From Pseudomonas chlororaphis subsp. chlororaphis (GTDB lineage Bacteria; Pseudomonadota; Gammaproteobacteria; Pseudomonadales; Pseudomonadaceae), in contig NZ_CP027712.1 in NCBI RefSeq assembly GCF_003945765.1, positions 4,154,001-4,218,000 of the forward strand: a DNA stretch of 64,000 nt, written 5' to 3'. Under the pieces are notes generated by a model that saw only the letters and a program-made list of their open reading frames with translations, did no database searches and was not told where the DNA came from. The position numbers and the translations under genes are program-made. Shown here one piece after another: positions 13,238 through 22,018 of this stretch (position 1 is its first letter; each line of letters begins with the position of its first letter).

Positions 13238-15061
13238 CTACTCACTATGCAAGTTCGCATAAATCAGTTCAGCGAGCTTTTTACTGATCCCCGGCGCCTT
13301 GGCGATCTCCTCGATGCTGGCGCGAGACAGTTCCTGCAATCCGCCAAAGTGTTTCAGCAGGTCGCGGCGGCGCTTGGGGCCGACGCCGGCCACGCCTTCG
13401 AGGGTCGAAGTGCGGCGGGTCTTGCCGCGACGCGCGCGGTGGCCGGTGATGGCGAAACGGTGAGCCTCGTCGCGGATCTGCTGGATCAGGTGCAGCGCCG
13501 GTGAGTCGCCCTTGAGGGTGAACTCATGGGCCGCATCGTTGAGGTAGAGGGTCTCGAAGCCGGCCTTGCGCGTCGCGCCCTTGGCCACCCCCAAGAGGAT
13601 CAGGTCGGGCACCGCCAGCTCGTTGAGCACGTCGCGGGCCATGGACAGCTGGCCCTTGCCGCCGTCCACCAACAGGATGTCCGGCAGCTTGCCCTCACCG
13701 TCCTTGAGTTTGCTGAAGCGCCGGGTCAGGGCCTGGTGCATCGCCGCATAGTCGTCGCCGGCGGTGACGCCTTCGATGTTGTAGCGCCGGTAATCGGACT
13801 TCAGCGGACCTTCCGGGCCAAATACCACGCAGGACGCCACGGTCGCCTCGCCGCTGGAGTGACTGATGTCGTAACACTCCAGGCGTTGCGGCGGCTCGTC
13901 CAGGTTCAGCACTTCGGCCAGGGCTTCGAAACGTGCGGCCACATGCTGCCGATTGGCCAGCCGCGCGCTCAGGGCCTGCTCGGCGTTGGTCACCGCCAGC
14001 TGCTGCCAGCGCGCCCGCGTGCCGCGCACCCGGTGGCTGATGCTCAGCTCGCGACCGCGCAAGGCCTGGATCGCGGTGATCAGGGTCGGGAAATCTTCAT
14101 GGACCACGTTGACGATCAGCTCGCTGGGCAGGTCGCGCTCCGGGCTGCTGAGAAAGTACTGGCCAAGGAATGCCGACATGACCTCGGCCACCTCTTCCTC
14201 GATACCCACCTGGGGAAAGAAGTTCTTGCTGCCCAGCACCCGGCCGCCACGCACGCTGATCAGGTGCACACAGGCGCCGCCCGGGTTGACGAAAGCCGCC
14301 ACCACATCGACGTCGCCGCTGCCGCCTTCCATGCTCTGCTGGTCCTGCACCCGCCGCAGCAGGGAAATCTGGTCGCGCAGCTCGGCGGCCTTCTCGAAGT
14401 CCAGGGTGCTGGCCGCCTGCTCCATGCCCGCCGACAGTTCGTCGGTCAGGGCATTGCTGCGGCCTTCGAGGAACATCACCGAGTGGCGCACATCCTCGGC
14501 ATACACCTCGGCCTCCACCAGGCCGACGCACGGCGCCTTGCAGCGCTTGATCTGATATTGCAGGCACGGCCGGGTGCGGTTCTTGTAGTAGCTGTCCTCG
14601 CACTGGCGGACCATGAAGGTCTTTTGCAGCAGGCTCAGGCTCTCGCGAATCGCCCCGGCGCTGGGGTACGGCCCGAAGTACTTGCCCTTTTGCTTCTTCG
14701 CCCCGCGATGGATGCTGAAACGCGGAAACTCGCCGTCCGACAGAAACACATAGGGATAGGACTTATCGTCGCGCAACAGGATGTTGTACGGCGGCCGCCA
14801 TTCCTTGATCAGCGTCTGCTCCAGCAGCAGGGCTTCGGTTTCGTTGGCGGTGATGGTGGTTTCGATCTGCGCGATGCGCCCCACCAGGGCAGCGGTCTTC
14901 GGCGCCAGGCCGGTCTTGCGAAAGTAGCTGGCCAGGCGGCTCTTCAGGTTCTTGGCTTTACCGACGTAAAGCAGACGTGCATCGCCGTCGAACATGCGAT
15001 ACACGCCAGGACGGCCACTGCAGGTGGAAAGAAAAGCACTGGGATCAAACGGGTCGGTCAT
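13238..15061 (-). CDS. uvrC: Excinuclease ABC subunit C
   Basis: Dual-incision nuclease of nucleotide excision repair, 607 residues, standard length. The GIY-YIG domain is at residues 15-95 ([21 protein letters not shown]). A cysteine cluster follows ([15 protein letters not shown] near 165), then the UVR motif near 205-240 ([28 protein letters not shown]). The RNase H-like UvrC C-terminal domain includes [10 protein letters not shown] and [11 protein letters not shown], and tandem helix-hairpin-helix motifs end the protein ([19 protein letters not shown]). The ATG lies two bases after the gacA stop, the classic gacA-uvrC operon. Confidence 0.98.
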
Positions 15062-15063
15062 TG

Positions 15064-15705
15064 TCAGGCGCTGGCATCGACCATGCCGTGGCGAACCGCC
15101 AGCAACGTCAGTTCGACATCACTGCTGATCGAGAGCTTCTCGAAGATACGGTAACGGTAGGTATTCACGGTTTTCGGAGACAGGCACAACTTGTCGGAGA
15201 TGATCTGCACTTTCTGGCAGCCGACAATCATCAGCGCAATCTGGATCTCGCGCTCCGACAAGGCGTCGAACGGTGAATCACTGGACGGCTGGAATGACTT
15301 GAACACCAGTTGCTGGGCAATCTGCGGGCTGATGTAACGCTGGCCGGCAAACACCAGGCGGATGGCCTGCACCATTTCGTTGAGACCCGCGCCCTTGGTC
15401 AGGTAACCCGCCGCACCGGCTTGCAGCAAGCGGGTCGGGAACGGATCTTCTTCACACACGGTGACGGCCACGACTTTGATATCCGGGTGACTGCGCAATA
15501 ACTTGCGCGTGGCTTCAAGACCGCCGATCCCGGGCATCTTGACGTCCATGAGGACCACATCGGGTTTCAATTCCCGGGCCTTGAGCAGGGATTCCTCCCC
15601 TGATTCGGCCTGACCGACCACTTGCAGGCCATCGATGTCAGCCAGCATTCGTGTAATACCTGTATGAACGAGATCATGGTCATCGACTACTAGCACCCTA
15701 ATCAA
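15064..15705 (-). CDS. gacA: Response regulator GacA (UvrY)
   Basis: Global two-component regulator partnered by the GacS kinase. It activates the Rsm small RNAs and so secondary metabolism, exoenzymes and biocontrol traits. The 213-residue product has a receiver domain (D8-D9, phosphoacceptor D54 in [10 protein letters not shown]82, K104) and a LuxR-type helix-turn-helix ([10 protein letters not shown] to [13 protein letters not shown], residues 149-190). The start is the TTG at 15705, with GAGGTG five bases upstream, as in other Pseudomonas; an upstream ATG at 15798 is in frame but not used by the family. Residue 14 is His (CAT) where I recall Arg in orthologues. Confidence 0.97.
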
Positions 15706-15850
15706 GCAGACACCTCGCGATTTGGTCTTATAGGTTGCCGGACACCTTAGCAAAAAAGCAGCGTGCTGACCTAATGACAAACACCATATAAAAAGCACTT
15801 GTTCACCAGGGGTATCCGGTGGATGGTTGATGCGCTGCGAACGCCCTGCC

Positions 15851-16216
15851 CTAAGGCTCTCGGGCGTCCGCCTTTCTTTTCATGAGGCTGGAAACCGAAA
15901 GCTCGGCAAGGGTATGGGTCAGGTGCCGGATCGCGTCCTGATCTTCCTTGTACAAAGCCCGATAACTGACGAGGATTCTCTCTTCGCTCTGGCTGAGGTT
16001 ATCGGCCCTGGTCGGGGTCCGCCTGCCGGTCACTATATAAAGGACATCGACCCCTTTTGCCGCCACCCGGGACAAGTAATCCGCCTTGGGCACACGGTCT
16101 CCACTTTCATATCTGCCTTGGGCATTGGCTTCCACGCCGCCAACTTCACCAAATTTTTTCTGCGACAACCCCAGGCGTTCCCTTTCCTGTCTTAACCGCG
16201 AACCGATTCCACTCAT
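15851..16216 (-). CDS. XRE-family helix-turn-helix regulator
   Basis: A 121-residue Cro/CI-type DNA-binding protein. The helix-turn-helix is at residues 3-60 (IGSRLRQERERLGLSQKKFGEVGGV, then GRYESGDRVPKADYLSRVAA), followed by GVDVLYIVTGRRTP, a pattern common in phage-type repressors of Pseudomonas. ATG 16216 was chosen as the first Met giving a normal N-terminus; the longer upstream frame has no family support. It is divergent from a second small DNA-binding protein, 81 bases apart, a layout like a phage repressor/Cro switch. It lies just upstream of gacA on the same strand. Confidence 0.8.
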   Translation of the reverse strand: MSGIGSRLRQERERLGLSQKKFGEVGGVEANAQGRYESGDRVPKADYLSRVAAKGVDVLYIVTGRRTPTRADNLSQSEERILVSYRALYKEDQDAIRHLTHTLAELSVSSLMKRKADAREP

Positions 16217-16297
16217 TTGGATGTATGATCCTTTTTTATGCACCCCTAGGGGTGTTACACCCTTCAAGCATTGAACAAATTTGAACGGTTTTGAACT

Positions 16298-16528
16298 ATG
16301 CCCGGTATCCGCACTGCCGCACAAGCCAAGGCCTGGCTTGAACATCAAGGTAAATCGGTTCAACAGTTCGCCCGTGAACACGGGGTCGACCCAGCCACCA
16401 CCTACCAGGTATTGGCCGGCCGCAAGAAAGGACGACGCGGAGAGGCGCACAAGGTGGCCGTATTGCTGGGTATGAAAGACGGCATCATCCTGGCCGAGCC
16501 GGAGGATCCCGGTCAGGCGCCCGCCTGA
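16298..16528 (+). CDS. Small DNA-binding protein (Cro-like, phage-associated type)
   Basis: A 76-residue basic protein with a helix-turn-helix-like core (VQQFAREHGVDPATTYQVLAGRKKGRRGEAHKVAVLLGMKDG, residues 21-62). It matches the small phage-associated DNA-binding proteins found beside XRE repressors in Pseudomonas. The shared intergenic region (16217-16297) should contain both promoters and operators. This is an isolated switch pair without obvious phage structural genes, so it may be a domesticated phage remnant or a hotspot marker. Confidence 0.65.
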   Translation: MPGIRTAAQAKAWLEHQGKSVQQFAREHGVDPATTYQVLAGRKKGRRGEAHKVAVLLGMKDGIILAEPEDPGQAPA

Positions 16529-16585
16529 TCCTCGACTGTCGCCACACTGCTCGGGACAACCGCCGTCCCACACAAAAACCAGCGG

Positions 16586-17032
16586 CTACGCATCCGCGGC
16601 GCTGCTTCGCTCCATCCGTAGAAAGCACTCGTCTTCCCCGACCACCTTCAGCCCCATGCGCCCATAGAGCGCCTGCGCCGGGTTGTCCTTGAACACCGTC
16701 AGCCGCAGCAGCCCACGCCGTTCACCACGCGCCATCGCCAACACCTGTTCGATGGTCCAGGCCCCGGCACCTTGCCCGCGAAACGCCTCGAGCACATGCA
16801 ACTCGCGAATATACAAGGCCCTGGAATCGCGACTCAGGCTGACGAATCCCAGCACCTCGGCACCCTGGCAGATCAGCAGGTTCTCCCGCCCGGCCCAGGC
16901 CACATCGAAGGCTTCGTCCAGCCACAACAGGTCGTGACGGATGTAATAGCCCAGCATGGTGCTGCGGGTCAGGTCGCGGGCGAACAGCAGATCCTCCGAG
17001 GTGCTGGCCGGACGCAGTTGGAAACCGTTCAA
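16586..17032 (-). CDS. GNAT family N-acetyltransferase
   Basis: A 148-residue acetyltransferase-like protein. The GNAT core is visible as LYIRELHVLEAFRGQGAGAWTIEQV near residues 77-101 (acetyl-CoA-binding R/QxxGxG/A loop) and LRLTVFKDNPAQALYGRMGLKVVGED near 113-138. The likely start is the TTG at 17032, which overlaps the nitrilase stop as TTGA; no upstream ATG fits. It therefore appears translationally coupled to the carbon-nitrogen hydrolase gene. Substrate unknown. Confidence 0.8.
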   Translation of the reverse strand: MNGFQLRPASTSEDLLFARDLTRSTMLGYYIRHDLLWLDEAFDVAWAGRENLLICQGAEVLGFVSLSRDSRALYIRELHVLEAFRGQGAGAWTIEQVLAMARGERRGLLRLTVFKDNPAQALYGRMGLKVVGEDECFLRMERSSAADA

Positions 17033-17787
17033 GGCGCTTCGACCGTCACTTGTTGACCACTCCAGCGACCGGCGTCGCGCCGGGCGATCAGCAACTCGTC
17101 GCCACAGCCTGCGGCGGCCACGATCAACCCGCCATCCGGCCCCCAGATCGCGCTGCGGCCCGCCGACACCCAGCCCCCGGTCGGTCCGCCGTGGTTGGCC
17201 ATCAGCACCAGCATTGCATGCTCTGCGGCATAGCCCTGCAACAAGGTACTGTCCGCGGCGTAGCCGTTTTCGCTGATCAGCACGCCGGCGGCATAGATGC
17301 CGGCGCCGGACTGCGCCGCCGCACGTGCATGGCTGGCCTGGGAGAAATCGGCGCACACCGCCAGGGCCACCCGGTCCTCGGCGAACCTCAGGTTCGCGCC
17401 ACCCGTGCCTGGGCTGAACACCAACTCCTCGCCGGCATGCAGATGCTGCTTGCTATAGACCGCCAACGAACCATCGGCTGCCAGCACCAGGGCGCCGATC
17501 AACAACGGCCCCTCGGCCGACAGGCGAATGGGCATGCCCACCACCGCCGTCACCCCCAGCTCCCGGGCCAGGTCGCGTAACGGTTGCAACAACGGGCTTT
17601 GGGGCAAGACCGCCAGCTCGGCCGCCAGCGTGGGCTCGTAACCGGTCAGGGACAACTCGGGAAACACCAACAATTGCACGCCCCGCTCCACCGCGGCGCG
17701 GATAAAGGCCTGGTGCCGGGCGATATTGCCCGGCAGGTCTCCGGCAACGGAAATCGATTGGGCGGCGGCAAGGGTCAGGGAGGTCAT
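17029..17787 (-). CDS. Carbon-nitrogen hydrolase (nitrilase superfamily)
   Basis: A 252-residue nitrilase-superfamily amidase. The catalytic triad is readable as Glu in LLVFPELSLTGYEP near residue 44, Lys in VYSKQHLH near 113, and Cys in LAVCADFSQ near 145. The family cleaves amides, N-carbamoyl compounds or nitriles. The AVCADFS active-site context resembles uncharacterised amidases near acetyltransferases. It overlaps the downstream GNAT gene by four bases and is divergent from the aromatic leader/DAHP synthase transcript. Confidence 0.88.
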   Translation of the reverse strand: MTSLTLAAAQSISVAGDLPGNIARHQAFIRAAVERGVQLLVFPELSLTGYEPTLAAELAVLPQSPLLQPLRDLARELGVTAVVGMPIRLSAEGPLLIGALVLAADGSLAVYSKQHLHAGEELVFSPGTGGANLRFAEDRVALAVCADFSQASHARAAAQSGAGIYAAGVLISENGYAADSTLLQGYAAEHAMLVLMANHGGPTGGWVSAGRSAIWGPDGGLIVAAAGCGDELLIARRDAGRWSGQQVTVEAP

Positions 17788-17891
17788 GATTCGTCCTGAA
17801 TGAACACAAATGAGGGCGTGGCGAGTGTGTCATAAAACTTCAAAGCGCTTCACTCATAGGCACTTACTGGCCAGGTAATAGGAATTTCTGA

Positions 17892-17921
17892 TTGAACCGC
17901 CACCCCGGCCTCTAGTAAGCT
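17892..17921 (+). promoter_or_regulatory. Candidate sigma-70 promoter for aromatic leader transcript
   Basis: TTGAAC at 17892-17897 is a fair -35 match, followed at 17-18 bases by a GTAAGC/TAAGCT element as a weak -10. It is placed about 25-30 bases upstream of the leader ribosome site. This is a visual match only. Confidence 0.3.
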
Positions 17922-17945
17922 CGGCCCACTTCACGGAGAAACAGC

Positions 17946-18080
17946 ATGTCGTCCCTCACCCTTTCCATGCATCGTCACACTGCCAGCGCCTCGCGCGTCG
18001 GTGCGGCTGCCTGGGTGAAAAACGCCTGCGCGACCGTGAGCTTTTATTTTGGGTATTGGTTTAGCCACTGGCGCGCCTGA
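17946..18080 (+). CDS. Aromatic-rich leader peptide (attenuator) upstream of DAHP synthase
   Basis: A 44-codon ORF with GGAG seven bases upstream of its ATG. It encodes MSSLTLSMHRHTASASRVGA at the start and FYFGYWFSHWRA at the end. Eight of the last twelve residues are Phe, Tyr, Trp or His, the signature of a leader peptide that senses charged aromatic tRNAs. It ends 49 bases before a strong intrinsic terminator, and the next long gene on this strand is a class I DAHP synthase, the entry enzyme of aromatic biosynthesis. Ribosome stalling at the aromatic codons would be expected to favour readthrough. Family-level knowledge: leader peptides of this design control trp, phe and his operons in Proteobacteria. 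Confidence 0.85.
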   Translation: MSSLTLSMHRHTASASRVGAAAWVKNACATVSFYFGYWFSHWRA

Positions 18081-18088
18081 TACCCAAA
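18048..18088 (+). promoter_or_regulatory. Attenuator control stem (1:2 pairing)
   Basis: TTTGGGTAT at 18048-18056 is perfectly complementary to ATACCCAAA at 18080-18088. The left arm covers the Phe-Gly-Tyr control codons of the leader peptide and the right arm begins at its stop codon. A ribosome stalled on these codons would open this stem and free the right arm and downstream bases for alternative pairing. A possible antiterminator contact is GGGT (18105-18108) with ACCC at the start of the terminator arm (18129-18132), which is weak by eye. Confidence 0.6.
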
Positions 18089-18129
18089 CGGCGCCCACTT
18101 GAACGGGTCGCCTACCAGAGAAAATCTCA

Positions 18130-18165
18130 CCCCCGGTCGGCCTCCCGACCGGGGGTTTTGTTTTT
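18130..18165 (+). terminator. Intrinsic terminator of the aromatic attenuator
   Basis: A perfect 11-bp GC-rich stem (CCCCCGGTCGG at 18130-18140 with CCGACCGGGGG at 18145-18155), a CCTC loop and the T-rich tract TTTTGTTTTT at 18156-18165. It lies between the leader peptide and the second short ORF, so all transcription into the DAHP synthase from the leader promoter must pass it. Confidence 0.92.
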
Positions 18166-18228
18166 CTGGGCCAACGATTTTTAACCACGACTTTCAGCAA
18201 CACACCGAACTTACCGAGGATTGAAACC

Positions 18229-18381
18229 ATGAACTACGCCACCTATTACCGTTACGACACTTGCACCACCTGGCGATTTAGCAGCCTCCGTTCGGGACAG
18301 CCTGCCGCCTCCGATCGGTCACCTACTGGTGGCAAACACACCTGCACAGCCAATCCGGCCAATTGTCGAACACCCCAGTAG
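18229..18381 (+). CDS. Second short aromatic-rich ORF (possible second leader peptide)
   Basis: A 50-codon ORF with GAGG eight bases before its ATG. Its start reads MNYATYYRYDTCTTWRFSS: four Tyr, one Trp and one Phe within 17 residues. It lies after the attenuator terminator and ends 47 bases before the DAHP synthase start, in a different frame. No second U-tract terminator follows, so if it regulates it would act through translation (coupling, or sequestration of the synthase ribosome site) or Rho access. A chance ORF is possible, but the ribosome site and the Tyr clustering argue against it. Confidence 0.6.
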   Translation: MNYATYYRYDTCTTWRFSSLRSGQPAASDRSPTGGKHTCTANPANCRTPQ

Positions 18382-18428
18382 GGCCGCGCGCGGGACACTG
18401 CCCGCCGCCTGCCCAGGAAGCCTTGAAC

Positions 18429-19520
18429 ATGAACTCGTCCGTATCCGCTCTGCCGCTGTCCACCCGCAACTGCGCCAACGAAGCCCTGAGCCAGCGCCTG
18501 CCCAGCTCGCTGGAGCTCAAGCAGCAACTGCCGCTCAGCCCGACCCTCGGCCAGCAAGTCACCGCCCATCGCCAGGCGGTGCGCGCCATCCTCAACGGTG
18601 AAGACTCCCGTTTGCTGGTCGTCGTCGGCCCCTGCTCGATCCACGATCCCCAGTCCGCCCTGGAATACGCCAGCAACCTGGCCAGCCTGGCCGCCGAGGT
18701 CAGCGACGACCTGCTGCTGGTAATGCGTGCCTACGTCGAAAAACCGCGCACCACCGTCGGCTGGAAAGGCCTGGCCTACGACCCGCGCCTGGATGGCAGT
18801 GACGACATGGCCGGCGGCCTGACCCTGTCCCGTGAACTGATGCGCGAAATCCTCCGCCTGGGCCTGCCGATCGCCACCGAGCTGCTGCAACCCATGGCCG
18901 CCGGCTACTTCGACGACCTGCTGAGCTGGGTCGCCATTGGCGCGCGCACCACCGAATCGCAGATCCACCGGGAAATGGCCAGCGGCCTGGGCATGCCCGT
19001 GGGCTTCAAGAACGGCACCGACGGCGGCGTCGGCATCGCCTGCGACGCCATGCGCTCGGCGGCGCACCCGCACCGCCACTTCGGCGTCGACAGCCAGGGC
19101 CATCCGGCGGTGATCCAGACCCCGGGCAACCCCGATACTCACCTGGTGCTGCGTGGCGGCCATCGCGGCCCGAACTACGATCGCCAGAGCGTGGCCCAGG
19201 TCCAGCACGACTTGCAGAAACTGAAGATCCCGGCGCGGATCATGGTCGATTGCAGCCATGCCAACAGCGGCAAGGACCCGTTGCGCCAACCGGCGGTGTT
19301 CGGCGAGGTCCTGGAGCAGCGCCTGCTGGGCGATTCGTCCCTGGTCGGGGTGATGCTGGAGAGCCATCTGTTCGAGGGTTGCCAACCCCTGAGCCCGACG
19401 CTGCGCTACGGGGTTTCGGTGACGGACGGTTGCCTGGGCTGGGACGCCACCGAGCAGCTGCTGCGCAATGCCGCCCGGCAACTGCGCAACAGCCGGCAAG
19501 CCATTCCGGCTTCCGCCTGA
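18429..19520 (+). CDS. 3-deoxy-7-phosphoheptulonate synthase, class I (AroFGH type)
   Basis: Condenses phosphoenolpyruvate and erythrose 4-phosphate to DAHP, the first step of the shikimate pathway. The 363-residue product has the class I marks VVGPCSIHDPQSALEYA near residue 64, MRAYVEKPRTTVGWKG near 100, PIATELLQP near 146, GARTTESQIHREMASGL near 175, HLVLRGG near 238 and the metal-binding DCSHANSGKDP near 275. ATG 18429 has AGGAAG eight bases upstream. Whether it is Tyr-, Phe- or Trp-sensitive cannot be told from sequence alone. It is preceded by an aromatic attenuator, so transcription probably responds to aromatic amino acid supply. Confidence 0.93.
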   Translation: MNSSVSALPLSTRNCANEALSQRLPSSLELKQQLPLSPTLGQQVTAHRQAVRAILNGEDSRLLVVVGPCSIHDPQSALEYASNLASLAAEVSDDLLLVMRAYVEKPRTTVGWKGLAYDPRLDGSDDMAGGLTLSRELMREILRLGLPIATELLQPMAAGYFDDLLSWVAIGARTTESQIHREMASGLGMPVGFKNGTDGGVGIACDAMRSAAHPHRHFGVDSQGHPAVIQTPGNPDTHLVLRGGHRGPNYDRQSVAQVQHDLQKLKIPARIMVDCSHANSGKDPLRQPAVFGEVLEQRLLGDSSLVGVMLESHLFEGCQPLSPTLRYGVSVTDGCLGWDATEQLLRNAARQLRNSRQAIPASA

Positions 19521-19530
19521 ACCTGCCCCC

Positions 19531-19617
19531 GTAGGAGCGAGGCTTGCCCGCGATACAGGCGACGCGGCAAGTCAGGTACACCGCGTCATCGTTATCGCGG
19601 GCAAGCCTCGCTCCTAC
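19531..19617. repeat. REP pair, family A (inverted)
   Basis: Two copies of the GTAGGAGCGAGGCTTGCCCG-type REP face each other, forming a long imperfect hairpin just after the DAHP synthase stop. It probably also protects or ends that transcript. Confidence 0.85.
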
Positions 19618-19732
19618 AGAATAAATGCCATCGACCGACCATCCCTTGCTGCAATGCCTTGACGGAACTTTGACGAGAAATAGGCTACACAATCCGGTAG
19701 GCTCACCACTTTCTTGAAAGGAGCAACTCCCC

Positions 19733-20014
19733 ATGGCCAAAGCCACTGCCCGTCACATCCTCGTTGCCAGCGAAGCCAAGTGCAACGAACTGAAAGCCGA
19801 AATCGAAGCCGGCGCCGACTTCGCCGAAGTCGCCAAGAAGAACTCCACTTGCCCATCCAGCCGTGACGGCGGCAACCTCGGCTCGTTCGGCCCAGGCCAG
19901 ATGGTCAAGGAATTCGACACCGTGGTGTTCAGCGCCCCGGTCAATGTCGTGCAAGGCCCGGTGAAAACCCAGTTCGGTTATCACCTGCTGGAAGTGACCA
20001 GCCGCCAGGACTGA
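19733..20014 (+). CDS. ppiC: Small stand-alone parvulin peptidyl-prolyl isomerase (PpiC type)
   Basis: A 93-residue cytosolic parvulin consisting only of the isomerase domain. RHILVASEAKCNEL (residues 7-20), FAEVAKKNSTCPS..GGNLGSFGPGQMV near 33-63, and FGYHLLEVTSR at the end are the family core; there is no signal peptide. It catalyses cis-trans isomerisation of peptidyl-prolyl bonds. AAAGGAG precedes the ATG by nine bases. The gene is monocistronic, bounded by a REP pair before it and an intrinsic terminator after it. A related 91-residue copy lies at 34900-35175. Confidence 0.93.
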   Translation: MAKATARHILVASEAKCNELKAEIEAGADFAEVAKKNSTCPSSRDGGNLGSFGPGQMVKEFDTVVFSAPVNVVQGPVKTQFGYHLLEVTSRQD

Positions 20015-20037
20015 CCCTGTCGCGATTTGCGTGAACG

Positions 20038-20068
20038 ACGGCCCGCCCTTTGGTGGGCCGTTGTGTTT
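20038..20068 (+). terminator. Rho-independent terminator after ppiC
   Basis: A ten-base stem ACGGCCCGCC/GGTGGGCCGT (one G-T wobble) with a four-base loop CTTT, followed by TGTGTTT. It lies 24 bases after the ppiC stop. Confidence 0.75.
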
Positions 20069-20149
20069 GGGCTACGGCCCGCGCTGGTCAGCAGCGCGCC
20101 GGTAGCGTACAAATCGTGATCATCGATCACCCGGCTCTTAAGGCTGACA

Positions 20150-22018
20150 ATGCGACTGCTTTTCCCCTCCCTGCTCTTCACCACCCTGGCCCTGCTGCTG
20201 GGCACCGCGAGTGCCGACGCCGCACCGCAACACGCCTTGACCGTCTATGGCGAACCGGCCAAGTACCCCGCCGGCTTCAGCCACTTCGCCTACACCAACC
20301 CACAGGCGCCCAAGGGCGGGAGCATGCGCCGCTCGGCCATCGAGATCGGCCGCTTCGACCATGTGTTGCCCTACATCGACAAAGGCATCGGCGTCTCGCA
20401 ACTCGACGGCTATATCTATTCCCCCCTGGCCCAGCGTTCGCTGGACGAGCCCTACACCGTGTACGGCCTGGTGGCACAAAAGATGGAGCGCGCCGACGAC
20501 GGCCTGTGGCTGCGTTTCTACCTCAACCCCAAGGCGCGCTTCGCCGACGGCCAGCCGATCACCGCCGAAGACGTGCGCTACACCTACAACCTGCTGATGA
20601 CCCAGGGCAGCCTGCGTTATCGCACCCAGTTCGCCGACGTCAAGGACGTCGAAGTCGAGTCGCCGCGGGTGATCCGCTTCGACTTCAAGAGCAATGAAAA
20701 CCGCACCCTGCCCCTGGATATCGCGACCCTGCCGGTACTGCCCGAGCACTGGTGGAAGAGTCGCGACTTCGCCGGCGGCGGTGGTTACGAAGCGCCCCTG
20801 GGCAGCGGCCCGTACAAGGTGAGCAAGGTCGATAACGGCAACAGCATCACCTTCACCCGCGATGCCGACTGGTGGGGCAAGGACCTGCCGGTCAGCCGCG
20901 GCCTGTACAACTTCGACCGCTTCAGCATCGAGTACTTCGGCGACACCGACGTCGCCCGCCAGGTACTGCGCGGCGGCGCCTACGATTACAACCGCGAGTT
21001 CTCCGCCACCGGTTTCTCCATCGGTTACGACAGCCCGGCCCTGAGCGATGGCCGCCTGCAAAAGGCCCACCTGGCCAAGCAGGCGCCGCAACCGGCCCAG
21101 GGCTTCGTGTTCAACCTGCAAAAGCCGATGTTCCAGGACCGCCGCGTGCGCCAGGCCCTGGCCATGCTCTGGGACTTCGAGTGGAGCAACCGGCAGATGA
21201 TGCGCGACCTGTACATCCGCCAGCAGAGCTTCTTCTCCAACAGCGCCCTGGCCGCGCGGGCGCTGCCGGATGCCGAAGAACTGAAGATCCTCGAACCGTT
21301 GCGCGGGCAGGTTCCCGACGAAGTCTTCACCCAGGTCTTCGAAGCGCCGAAAACCGACGGTAGCGGCCTGATCCGCGATAAACAGCTGCAAGCCCTGGCC
21401 CTGCTCGAAGCGGCCGGCTGGAAACCCGACGGCGACCAGCTGGTCAACGCCGACGGCGAGCCGCTGCGCTTCACCTTCCTCAACAGCCAGAACGGCATCG
21501 AACGCCTGCTGCTGCCCTACAAGCGCAACCTGGCGCAGATAGGCATCACCCTGGAAATCCGCCGCATCGACGCTTCGCAGTACGTCAACCGGCTGATGGC
21601 CCGCGACTACGACATGATCGTCACCGGCTACCCGGTGACCACCTCGCCGGGGCTGGAGCTGTACAACTACTTCGGCTCGGCGGCGGCCAACGACCCTGGT
21701 TCCAGCAACCTGATGGTGCTGAAAAACCCGGCGGTGGACAGCCTGATCAGCGGCCTGGTCAAGGCCACCAGCCAGCCACAGATGCTGAGTTACGCCCACG
21801 CCCTGGACCGGGTGCTGCAATGGAATTACTACTGGATCCCCAACTACTACCCGCCGGGCACCTCAACCGTGTGGTGGAACCGCTTCGGCATGCCGGCCAT
21901 TCCCGCCAGCAATGACGAAGCCATCGAAAGCTGGTGGGAAATGAGCCGCACGCCCCTGACCAACGAGCAAATGGCTGCCGAGCGCGTCCAGCGCGGCAAG
22001 CCCGGAGGGCCGCACTGA
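20150..22018 (+). CDS. yejA: Periplasmic peptide-binding protein (family 5, YejA-like)
   Basis: A 622-residue solute-binding protein with a signal peptide (residues 1-23, ...ASADAAPQ). It has family 5 features such as [10 protein letters not shown] near 57, [14 protein letters not shown] near 205, [26 protein letters not shown] near 318, and the C-terminal [21 protein letters not shown] near 560. This last stretch is characteristic of the YejA/microcin C-uptake branch. It delivers oligopeptides to the YejBEF transporter. It overlaps yejB (TGATG) and heads a four-gene ABC operon. Confidence 0.93.

Follow-up and report, generated by a model that had tools for sequence, protein, structure and literature searches.

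Two short open reading frames rich in aromatic codons, ORF1 and ORF2, lie in tandem upstream of a type-I DAHP synthase gene in the window (the whole 64,000-nt stretch of DNA analysed here), and from their sequence and conservation they are likely to form a two-leader control segment, with one gate at each leader, for the class of DAHP synthase that follows the Rfam element P15. The first leader very probably acts as an attenuator with mixed aromatic control codons, and the stretch catalogued as P15 fits a ribosome-mediated transcription attenuator of the his type better than an sRNA. For the second leader, a role as a sensing gate for aromatic supply is close to an even call. The elements of the segment are collected in Table 1.

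Table 1. Elements of the segment between the candidate promoter and the DAHP synthase gene, in window coordinates.
Feature	Position	Strand	Evidence
Candidate promoter: TTGAAC (17892-17897), 18 nt, TAAGCT (17916-17921)	17892-17921	+	upstream conservation
ORF1 ribosome site GGAGA	17935-17939	+	sequence; GGAG before the ORF1 start in 22/23 loci inspected
ORF1, putative leader peptide, 44 codons, ending FYFGYWFSHWRA	17946-18080	+	last 12 residues identical in 78/80 named loci
Rfam P15 (RF00627), full-length match, candidate attenuator body	18038-18155	+	126.1 bits; gathering score 70
ORF1 candidate control codons TTT TAT TTT GGG TAT TGG TTT AGC CAC TGG	18042-18071	+	near-invariant codons
Stem A:B (18048-18060 / 18075-18088), over control codons and stop codon	18048-18088	+	folding; 52-row alignment
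Alternative stem B:C, forms with arm A masked	18069-18097	+	folding; 52-row alignment
Stem C:D (18090-18096 with 18105-18112)	18090-18112	+	folding; 52-row alignment
Alternative stem D:E (candidate antiterminator), takes the terminator 5′ side	18105-18143	+	folding; 52-row alignment
Intrinsic terminator: perfect GC stem 18129-18156, T-rich tract 18157-18165	18129-18165	+	folding; alignment; terminator scan
ORF2 ribosome site GAGGA	18216-18220	+	4 or 5 of 6 matches to AGGAGG in 59/59 loci, the ORF2 start being chosen partly by this score
ORF2, Tyr-rich putative second leader, long form, 50 codons, begins MNYATYYRYDTCTTWRF	18229-18381	+	in 59/59 family loci
ORF2 core TGG CGA TTT AGC (WRFS)	18271-18282	+	CGA-TTT near-fixed
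GC hairpin between ORF2 stop and synthase ribosome site	18381-18414	+	pairs; arm swapping
Type-I DAHP synthase, candidate regulated gene, ATG at 18429	18429-19520	+	NCBIfam PRK12755, aroFGH

An earlier note on this DNA had described a 44-codon leader with a stem over its control codons, a GC stem with a T-rich tract behind it, and a second short ORF with a ribosome site of its own ahead of the synthase, all of which were found at or near where it had placed them. Its reading of the control codons as a mixture of Phe, Tyr and Trp also held, the last 12 codons of ORF1 containing three Phe, two Tyr and two Trp codons. By that count ORF1 is not Phe/Trp-biased, so the proposed split between a Phe/Trp leader and a Tyr leader had to be given up; ORF2 is rich in Tyr and has Trp and Phe as well. 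Among the 734 short ORFs of the window (12-70 aa, both strands), ORF1 is the only one with at least six F/Y/W within 12 residues (it has seven), and seven, ORF2 included, have at least five. The last 12 codons of ORF1 are near-frozen (pS 0.021, pN 0.027 in the 76 closest loci, 56 of them distinct), and the eight codons preceding them vary freely (pS 0.587, pN 0.294 in the same 76). Across genera, ORF1 ends in variations on [YF][FY]GYWFS plus a few residues, with GYWYRHRRA at one locus (L147). Both ORFs have the codons UUU AGC shortly after a Trp codon (18057-18065; 18271-18282).

Upstream of ORF1, the TTGA of the candidate promoter is kept in 20 of the 23 loci inspected and TAAGCT in 10 of them, and a sigma-70 consensus scan of 17700-18450 found no promoter. 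The promoter region of the leader is a divergent intergenic stretch, since a carbon-nitrogen hydrolase (PF00795) at 17029-17787 on the minus strand points away from it.

Folding energy for 18030-18170 lies 6 sd below that of shuffled sequences, none of 200 of which folds as well. When arm A is masked in the window, A:B and C:D are replaced cleanly by B:C and D:E. Conservation of the two sets of stems was read from an alignment (A1) of 52 of 59 loci, which leaves out L145, L168, L175, L189, L194 and L198, where the terminator pattern was unmatched, and L164, which equals L162. Measured against shuffled and slid controls, which do not remove the relatedness among the 52 rows, both sets score higher in cells paired, in cells changed on both sides and in covariation. 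The set A:B + C:D + E:F has 90.8% of its cells paired and a covariation of 0.062 (0.032 shuffled, reached by 0 of 500; at most 0.021 slid), and B:C + D:E has 85.5% paired and a covariation of 0.110 (0.066 shuffled, reached by 0 of 500; at most 0.050 slid). On two of the five pair measures neither set exceeds the shuffles: pairs changed on both sides number four in the first set (reached by 89 of 500 shuffles) and two in the second (reached by 497 of 500), and pair types are matched by 333 and 272 of 500 shuffles, respectively.

The individual stems are kept unevenly. The three outermost pairs of A:B are poorly kept, being paired in 4, 31 and 15 of the 52 rows. The outer pair of B:C compensates (AU in 15 rows, GC in 14, UA in 5, unpaired in 16), and in D:E the inner six pairs are each present in 51 or 52 rows and the outer two in 13 and 29. 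In a crude lowest-energy test of the 59 loci, C:D formed without D:E in 40 with A free, D:E formed with at least four pairs in 15 with A masked, and the full clean switch was seen in 11, the window among them. Because the controls keep relatedness and just 11 of 59 loci switch cleanly, the fold evidence for exclusive stems, though good in the window, is suggestive across the family. Folding and alignment, two of the checks that the earlier note had named, both favour its attenuator: antiterminator and terminator stems are mutually exclusive in the window, the aromatic codons are conserved, and both stem sets are kept across the 52 aligned loci.

ORF1 is thus a candidate leader with a ribosome site and clustered codons for products of the pathway; the stems that follow are mutually exclusive and conserved, and an intrinsic terminator stands ahead of a structural gene, as attenuators require. 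The conservation of codons, stems and location makes the attenuator reading of the first gate, already put forward in the note, a well supported one. E. coli hisL is a ribosome-mediated transcription attenuator with a leader ORF. The segment shares with the hisL type a leader ORF with control codons, three stems, the alternatives B:C and D:E, and an intrinsic terminator, but hisL answers to a single amino acid, whereas the codons here are mixed Phe/Tyr/Trp and a second aromatic ORF lies past the terminator. On the hisL pattern, transcription would begin just upstream of ORF1, and a ribosome stalled at the Phe, Tyr or Trp codons would hide arm A, so that B:C and D:E form and polymerase reads through. 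A ribosome reaching the ORF1 stop codon would instead favour C:D and the terminator form, ending the transcript near 18160, and the short RNA so released would be what was catalogued as P15.

The match to P15 covers model positions 1-119 of 119. Rfam types RF00627 as a gene, a Pseudomonas sRNA, whereas in the reading given here the same stretch holds an attenuator together with the last part of a leader ORF and the control codons in it; the model does not extend to ORF2. The earlier note knew of no such described system in Pseudomonas; its first half had in fact been catalogued, as sRNA P15. P15 has reportedly been detected by Northern blot. A passage of PMC2375449 places P15 among the sRNAs detected by Livny et al. 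and not identified in the study reported there. Searches of open-access literature on P15, DAHP synthase, leaders and transcript ends in Pseudomonas gave no description of P15 as an attenuator or cis element, or of ORF2; a prior description is possible. The main text of a study that mapped 3′ ends in P. aeruginosa has no P15, DAHP, PA1750 or leader peptide (Konikkat, 2021; PMC8297930), and neither DAHP, aroF, aromatic nor tyrosine occurs in that of Naville and Gautheret (2010; PMC2965389).

P15 is present in 361 of 398 genomes of the genus and in 156 of 198 genomes of the family, spanning 14 of its 19 genera. Across the order it was found in 15 of 194 genomes (eight of the same family, five of family f43 and two, weakly, in f36), and across the class in four of 229 (two of the same family, one in f207 at 69.8 bits and one at 28 bits); scans of 14 control genomes gave no matches. 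Within f43, 37 of 46 genomes have a match, and eight exceed the cut-off. The f207 locus (L292 in G974), well outside the order, has a P15-like leader ending YFYGYWFSRYGV (MHSEHDNNLSIARGAQARVASMYFYGYWFSRYGV) before a 60%-identical synthase, and the 28-bit match (L293), with no synthase in its vicinity, is probably due to chance. Within the window, an Rfam scan of 15000-22000 up to E = 1 returned only P15 and a weak shadow on the antisense of the terminator (18130-18228, minus strand, 25.4 bits), and no T-box or riboswitch. This weak antisense score accounts for most apparent second copies of P15 in the genome scans. A second copy per genome was accordingly rejected: in the 13 two-match genomes seen, 12 of the second matches are antisense terminator shadows, and the sole other one is a 29.8-bit match elsewhere in genome G550.

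The synthase protein exceeds the cut-offs of both NCBIfam models in Table 1, and its top solved matches by sequence, 6agl and 6agm, are named as Tyr-sensitive aldolases. A DAHP synthase lies downstream of P15 in 58 of 58 usable family loci; in a survey of 37 loci from outside the family, for which 35 of the 37 f43 genomes with P15 were read, a synthase match was present in 36, the exception being L293. The 28 tested genomes that lack P15 all have a type-I synthase, and in 27 of them it is only of a class 50-56% identical to that of the window. The remaining genome (G206) has a P15-class gene at a contig edge, which would cut off the leader. Upstream of the other class, the ORF1/ORF2 core motif occurs in none of the 28 loci that have 100 nt or more of upstream sequence, and a short ORF with four aromatics within 12 residues is present in one of the 28. 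The genome of the window has one synthase gene per class, and its second type-I DAHP synthase (L261, G000:C1:4908742-4909788), 52% identical to the first, has no aromatic leader in the 360 nt upstream. Right after the stop codon of the window's synthase, at about 19530-19620, stands the inverted pair TAGGAGCGAGGCTTGCCCGCGAT / ATCGCGGGCAAGCCTCGCTCCTA, which presumably resembles a Pseudomonas REP pair.

The two consecutive aromatic leaders that the earlier note saw are a conserved arrangement, ORF2 being found at every one of the family loci (Table 1). Its length in the family is 27-36 residues at 52 of the 59 loci and 48-50 at seven, which all belong to the window's genus. Tyr makes up 22% of residues 2-17 and F/Y/W together 35%, with Trp and Phe beside Tyr. 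The core is recognised at all loci but two (L147, L166), and 56 of these 57 have CGA-TTT; in the 23 long ORFs of the window, CGA makes up 10% of the Arg codons and TTT 22% of the Phe codons. Substitution was measured in 77 of 85 long-form loci (74 named loci, the window, L195 and L198), after dropping five internal-ATG picks and three loci of other length; ORF1 was read in 76 of these, and the synthase yardstick in a random 30 of the 77. The largest synonymous excess is in the frame of ORF2 itself (pS 0.169, pN 0.087, against 0.090/0.112 and 0.138/0.094 in the other frames). As its pS is far below the 0.480 of the synthase, the RNA or the codon identity of ORF2 is constrained as well. The last 16 codons have no synonymous excess (0.112/0.120). 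The long form has an extra stretch, RSGQPAASDRSPxGG (RSGQPAASDRSP; 18283-18345 in the window), that is kept in frame with little synonymous change (pS 0.125, against the same 0.480) and has a CACCnnnnGGUG hairpin in most printed rows; it looks like an added RNA element.

Outside the family, both f36 loci keep the WRF core with CGA-TTT although the peptide differs. Of the 35 f43 loci read, 19 have ORF2: all 15 of genus g110 and four of the 13 of g61. Of these 19, 16 retain CGA-TTT; L273, L274 and L284 have lost it. The g110 peptide is mostly MYRY...RF..W, with the MYRY start in 14 of 15 loci and CGA-TTT in 12 of 15; L279, where MYRY comes from an inner start, fell outside the position filter of the recount and is included from direct reading of the locus. 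In g61 the four ORF2s read MNRYYRNFALFCYWRFS or a close variant, and at a fifth locus (L269) the place is taken by another, longer ORF that lacks CGA-TTT. P15 and the synthase are kept without ORF2 in 15 of the 35 f43 loci (all seven of g106 and eight of the 13 of g61: L262-L266, L294, L295, L271, L272, L275, L276, L280, L282, L285 and L289), where just 105-146 nt separate the ORF1 stop from the synthase, so ORF2 is not indispensable. No ORF2 was found at the f207 locus either. Present in f36 and f43 yet absent from some f43 loci and from L292, ORF2 is old and separable, and P15 does not require it.

In a read-through RNA, the Tyr-rich ORF2, with its presumably slow CGA-UUU core, would be translated up to the hairpin next to the synthase ribosome site; the progress of ribosomes through ORF2 would set translation of the synthase. 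A scan of 18158-18450 found no terminator-like site after ORF2, and the fold of 18170-18450 is not unusual (z +0.44); with neither terminator nor unusual fold, ORF2 as a second intrinsic attenuator was rejected. RNAalifold found hardly any consensus structure in the alignment of short-form ORF2s. We hold that ORF2 probably controls synthase translation, by coupling, by attenuation, or by both in different lineages, because of the hairpin, the core pairing and the effect of masks described below, the last two of which are seen in part of the loci and not in the window.

One reading of ORF2 is that it is a plain translational coupler: ribosomes finishing it would melt the hairpin and re-start at the synthase, with no sensing, and the aromatic codons would be incidental or set a fixed pace. 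This is possible, if well short of probable. The distance from the ORF2 stop to the synthase start, 35-48 nt at 59 of 59 family loci, suits it, and so does the hairpin before the ribosome site, which has at least eight pairs in 51 of 52 distinct stretches and whose arms covary, the own arms beating arms swapped between genera in 45 of the 52, though not in the window. Arm swapping was used here because gaps in the alignment of this region (A2) scatter the arms in column-wise counting; A2 and the arm-swap set comprise 52 of the 59 loci once identical stretches are removed, and the synthase start of L146 is 48 nt off everywhere save in A2, the arm swapping and the final recount. Folding of the hairpin beats shuffles at 0.05 in 24 of 59 loci. 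Coupling through rare-codon uORFs in bacteria, P. aeruginosa among them, is covered in a passage of a review (PMC11550727). A coupler pure and simple sits less easily with an aromatic content of about a third at positions 2-17, or with g110, where the peptide differs and yet the MYRY start and CGA-TTT persist at most loci.

A second reading makes ORF2 a translational attenuator: base-pairing with the WRF core would close the synthase ribosome site until a ribosome halted at Tyr, Trp or Phe codons released it. As an account of ORF2 it is slightly less likely than plain coupling. The core pairs with the synthase ribosome site beyond shuffles (p < 0.05) in 20 of 59 loci, most strongly in L160 (-27.5 kcal/mol) and L161. 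Masking ORF2 at its last Tyr, Trp or Phe codon raises access to the synthase site by more than 0.1 in 23, 25 and 23 of 59 loci and lowers it in 1, 2 and 1, respectively, whereas control masks raise it in seven loci at the ORF2 start (lowering it in three) and in one at the stop (lowering it in four). The pairing is absent from the other 39 loci, which rules it out as a general rule; in the window it has no effect (z -0.33), and masks in ORF2 change access to the synthase site there by at most +0.09. Nor can the pairing explain the fixed core, as the core stays fixed where its partner changes. Pairing of the core with arm D of P15 (GGGUCGCC) was dropped by similar reasoning on the sequences, since D changes (GGGCCGCC, GGGACGCC) while the core stays. 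The two-step sensor of the earlier note therefore stands in its conserved tandem leaders; its second step, lacking a terminator after ORF2 and paired at only a minority of loci, is no firmer than the near-even call given above.

Very improbable, by comparison with the attenuator reading of the first gate, is that P15 is an independent trans-acting sRNA with the nearby synthase and the aromatic ORF secondary. Rfam's typing of P15 as an sRNA gene would agree with it, and PMC7298713 reports a trp attenuator leader peptide acting in trans in S. meliloti, but the aromatic codons, part of an ORF that has a ribosome site to itself, are the most strongly constrained, a DAHP synthase follows at every usable family locus, that synthase class is missing from all but one of the tested genomes without P15, and two exclusive folds are conserved. 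Still less probable is that the product of ORF2 is a small protein with an independent function. Its conservation in frame, which extends to the RSGQPAASDRSP stretch of the long form, would fit a protein, but it varies from 27 to 50 residues within the family, the ORF2s of other families share little with it beyond Tyr and RF, the window's ORF2 has no match in Pfam or NCBIfam, and its synonymous sites are constrained relative to those of the synthase. The weakest proposal, that ORF2 keeps Rho off the mRNA and that a rut-like region is exposed when it goes untranslated, draws on ORF2 filling much of the more than 250 nt otherwise untranslated between terminator and synthase, but ORF2 as a Rho/rut element was rejected for want of a C-over-G excess beyond that of the synthase start (C/G above 2 in 10 of 59 ORF2s against 14 of 59 synthase starts), and starvation would then lower expression.

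The proposed two-leader control segment can be set beside known leaders. E. coli trpL and pheL are aromatic leader peptides for a single amino acid each, standing before terminal branches; they share leader-peptide sensing of aromatics with the segment proposed here but are not placed before the entry enzyme. Corynebacterium glutamicum belongs to a different phylum from Pseudomonas. Its aroF, a DAHP synthase gene, has ahead of it a putative leader peptide with Phe-Tyr-Phe, as described in a passage of PMC4046766, but that passage names no Trp codons and no second ORF. In Salmonella, the mgtCBR leader has tandem attenuators, mgtM and mgtP, two short ORFs whose translation is thought to steer stem-loops according to PMC3641672; that operon, however, serves Mg transport and virulence, whereas here both ORFs are aromatic and a terminator follows the first only.

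Taken at its fullest, the two-leader reading would place two gates in series before the shikimate pathway's entry enzyme, the first acting on transcription and the second, separately, on translation, with P15 as the attenuated end. Each gate would have an aromatic ORF drawing on Phe, Tyr and Trp, and the segment would be common to at least three families of one order; we offer this tentatively, as a proposal falling just short of even. It would give an RNA now listed among the sRNAs a cis function, and a testable one. It would also provide a conserved natural case of two serial aromatic leader ORFs, the second with a near-fixed CGA-UUU core and no terminator, and would help to explain how aromatic synthesis is tuned in this Pseudomonas, in whose genome a leader-controlled and a leaderless type-I DAHP synthase occur together.
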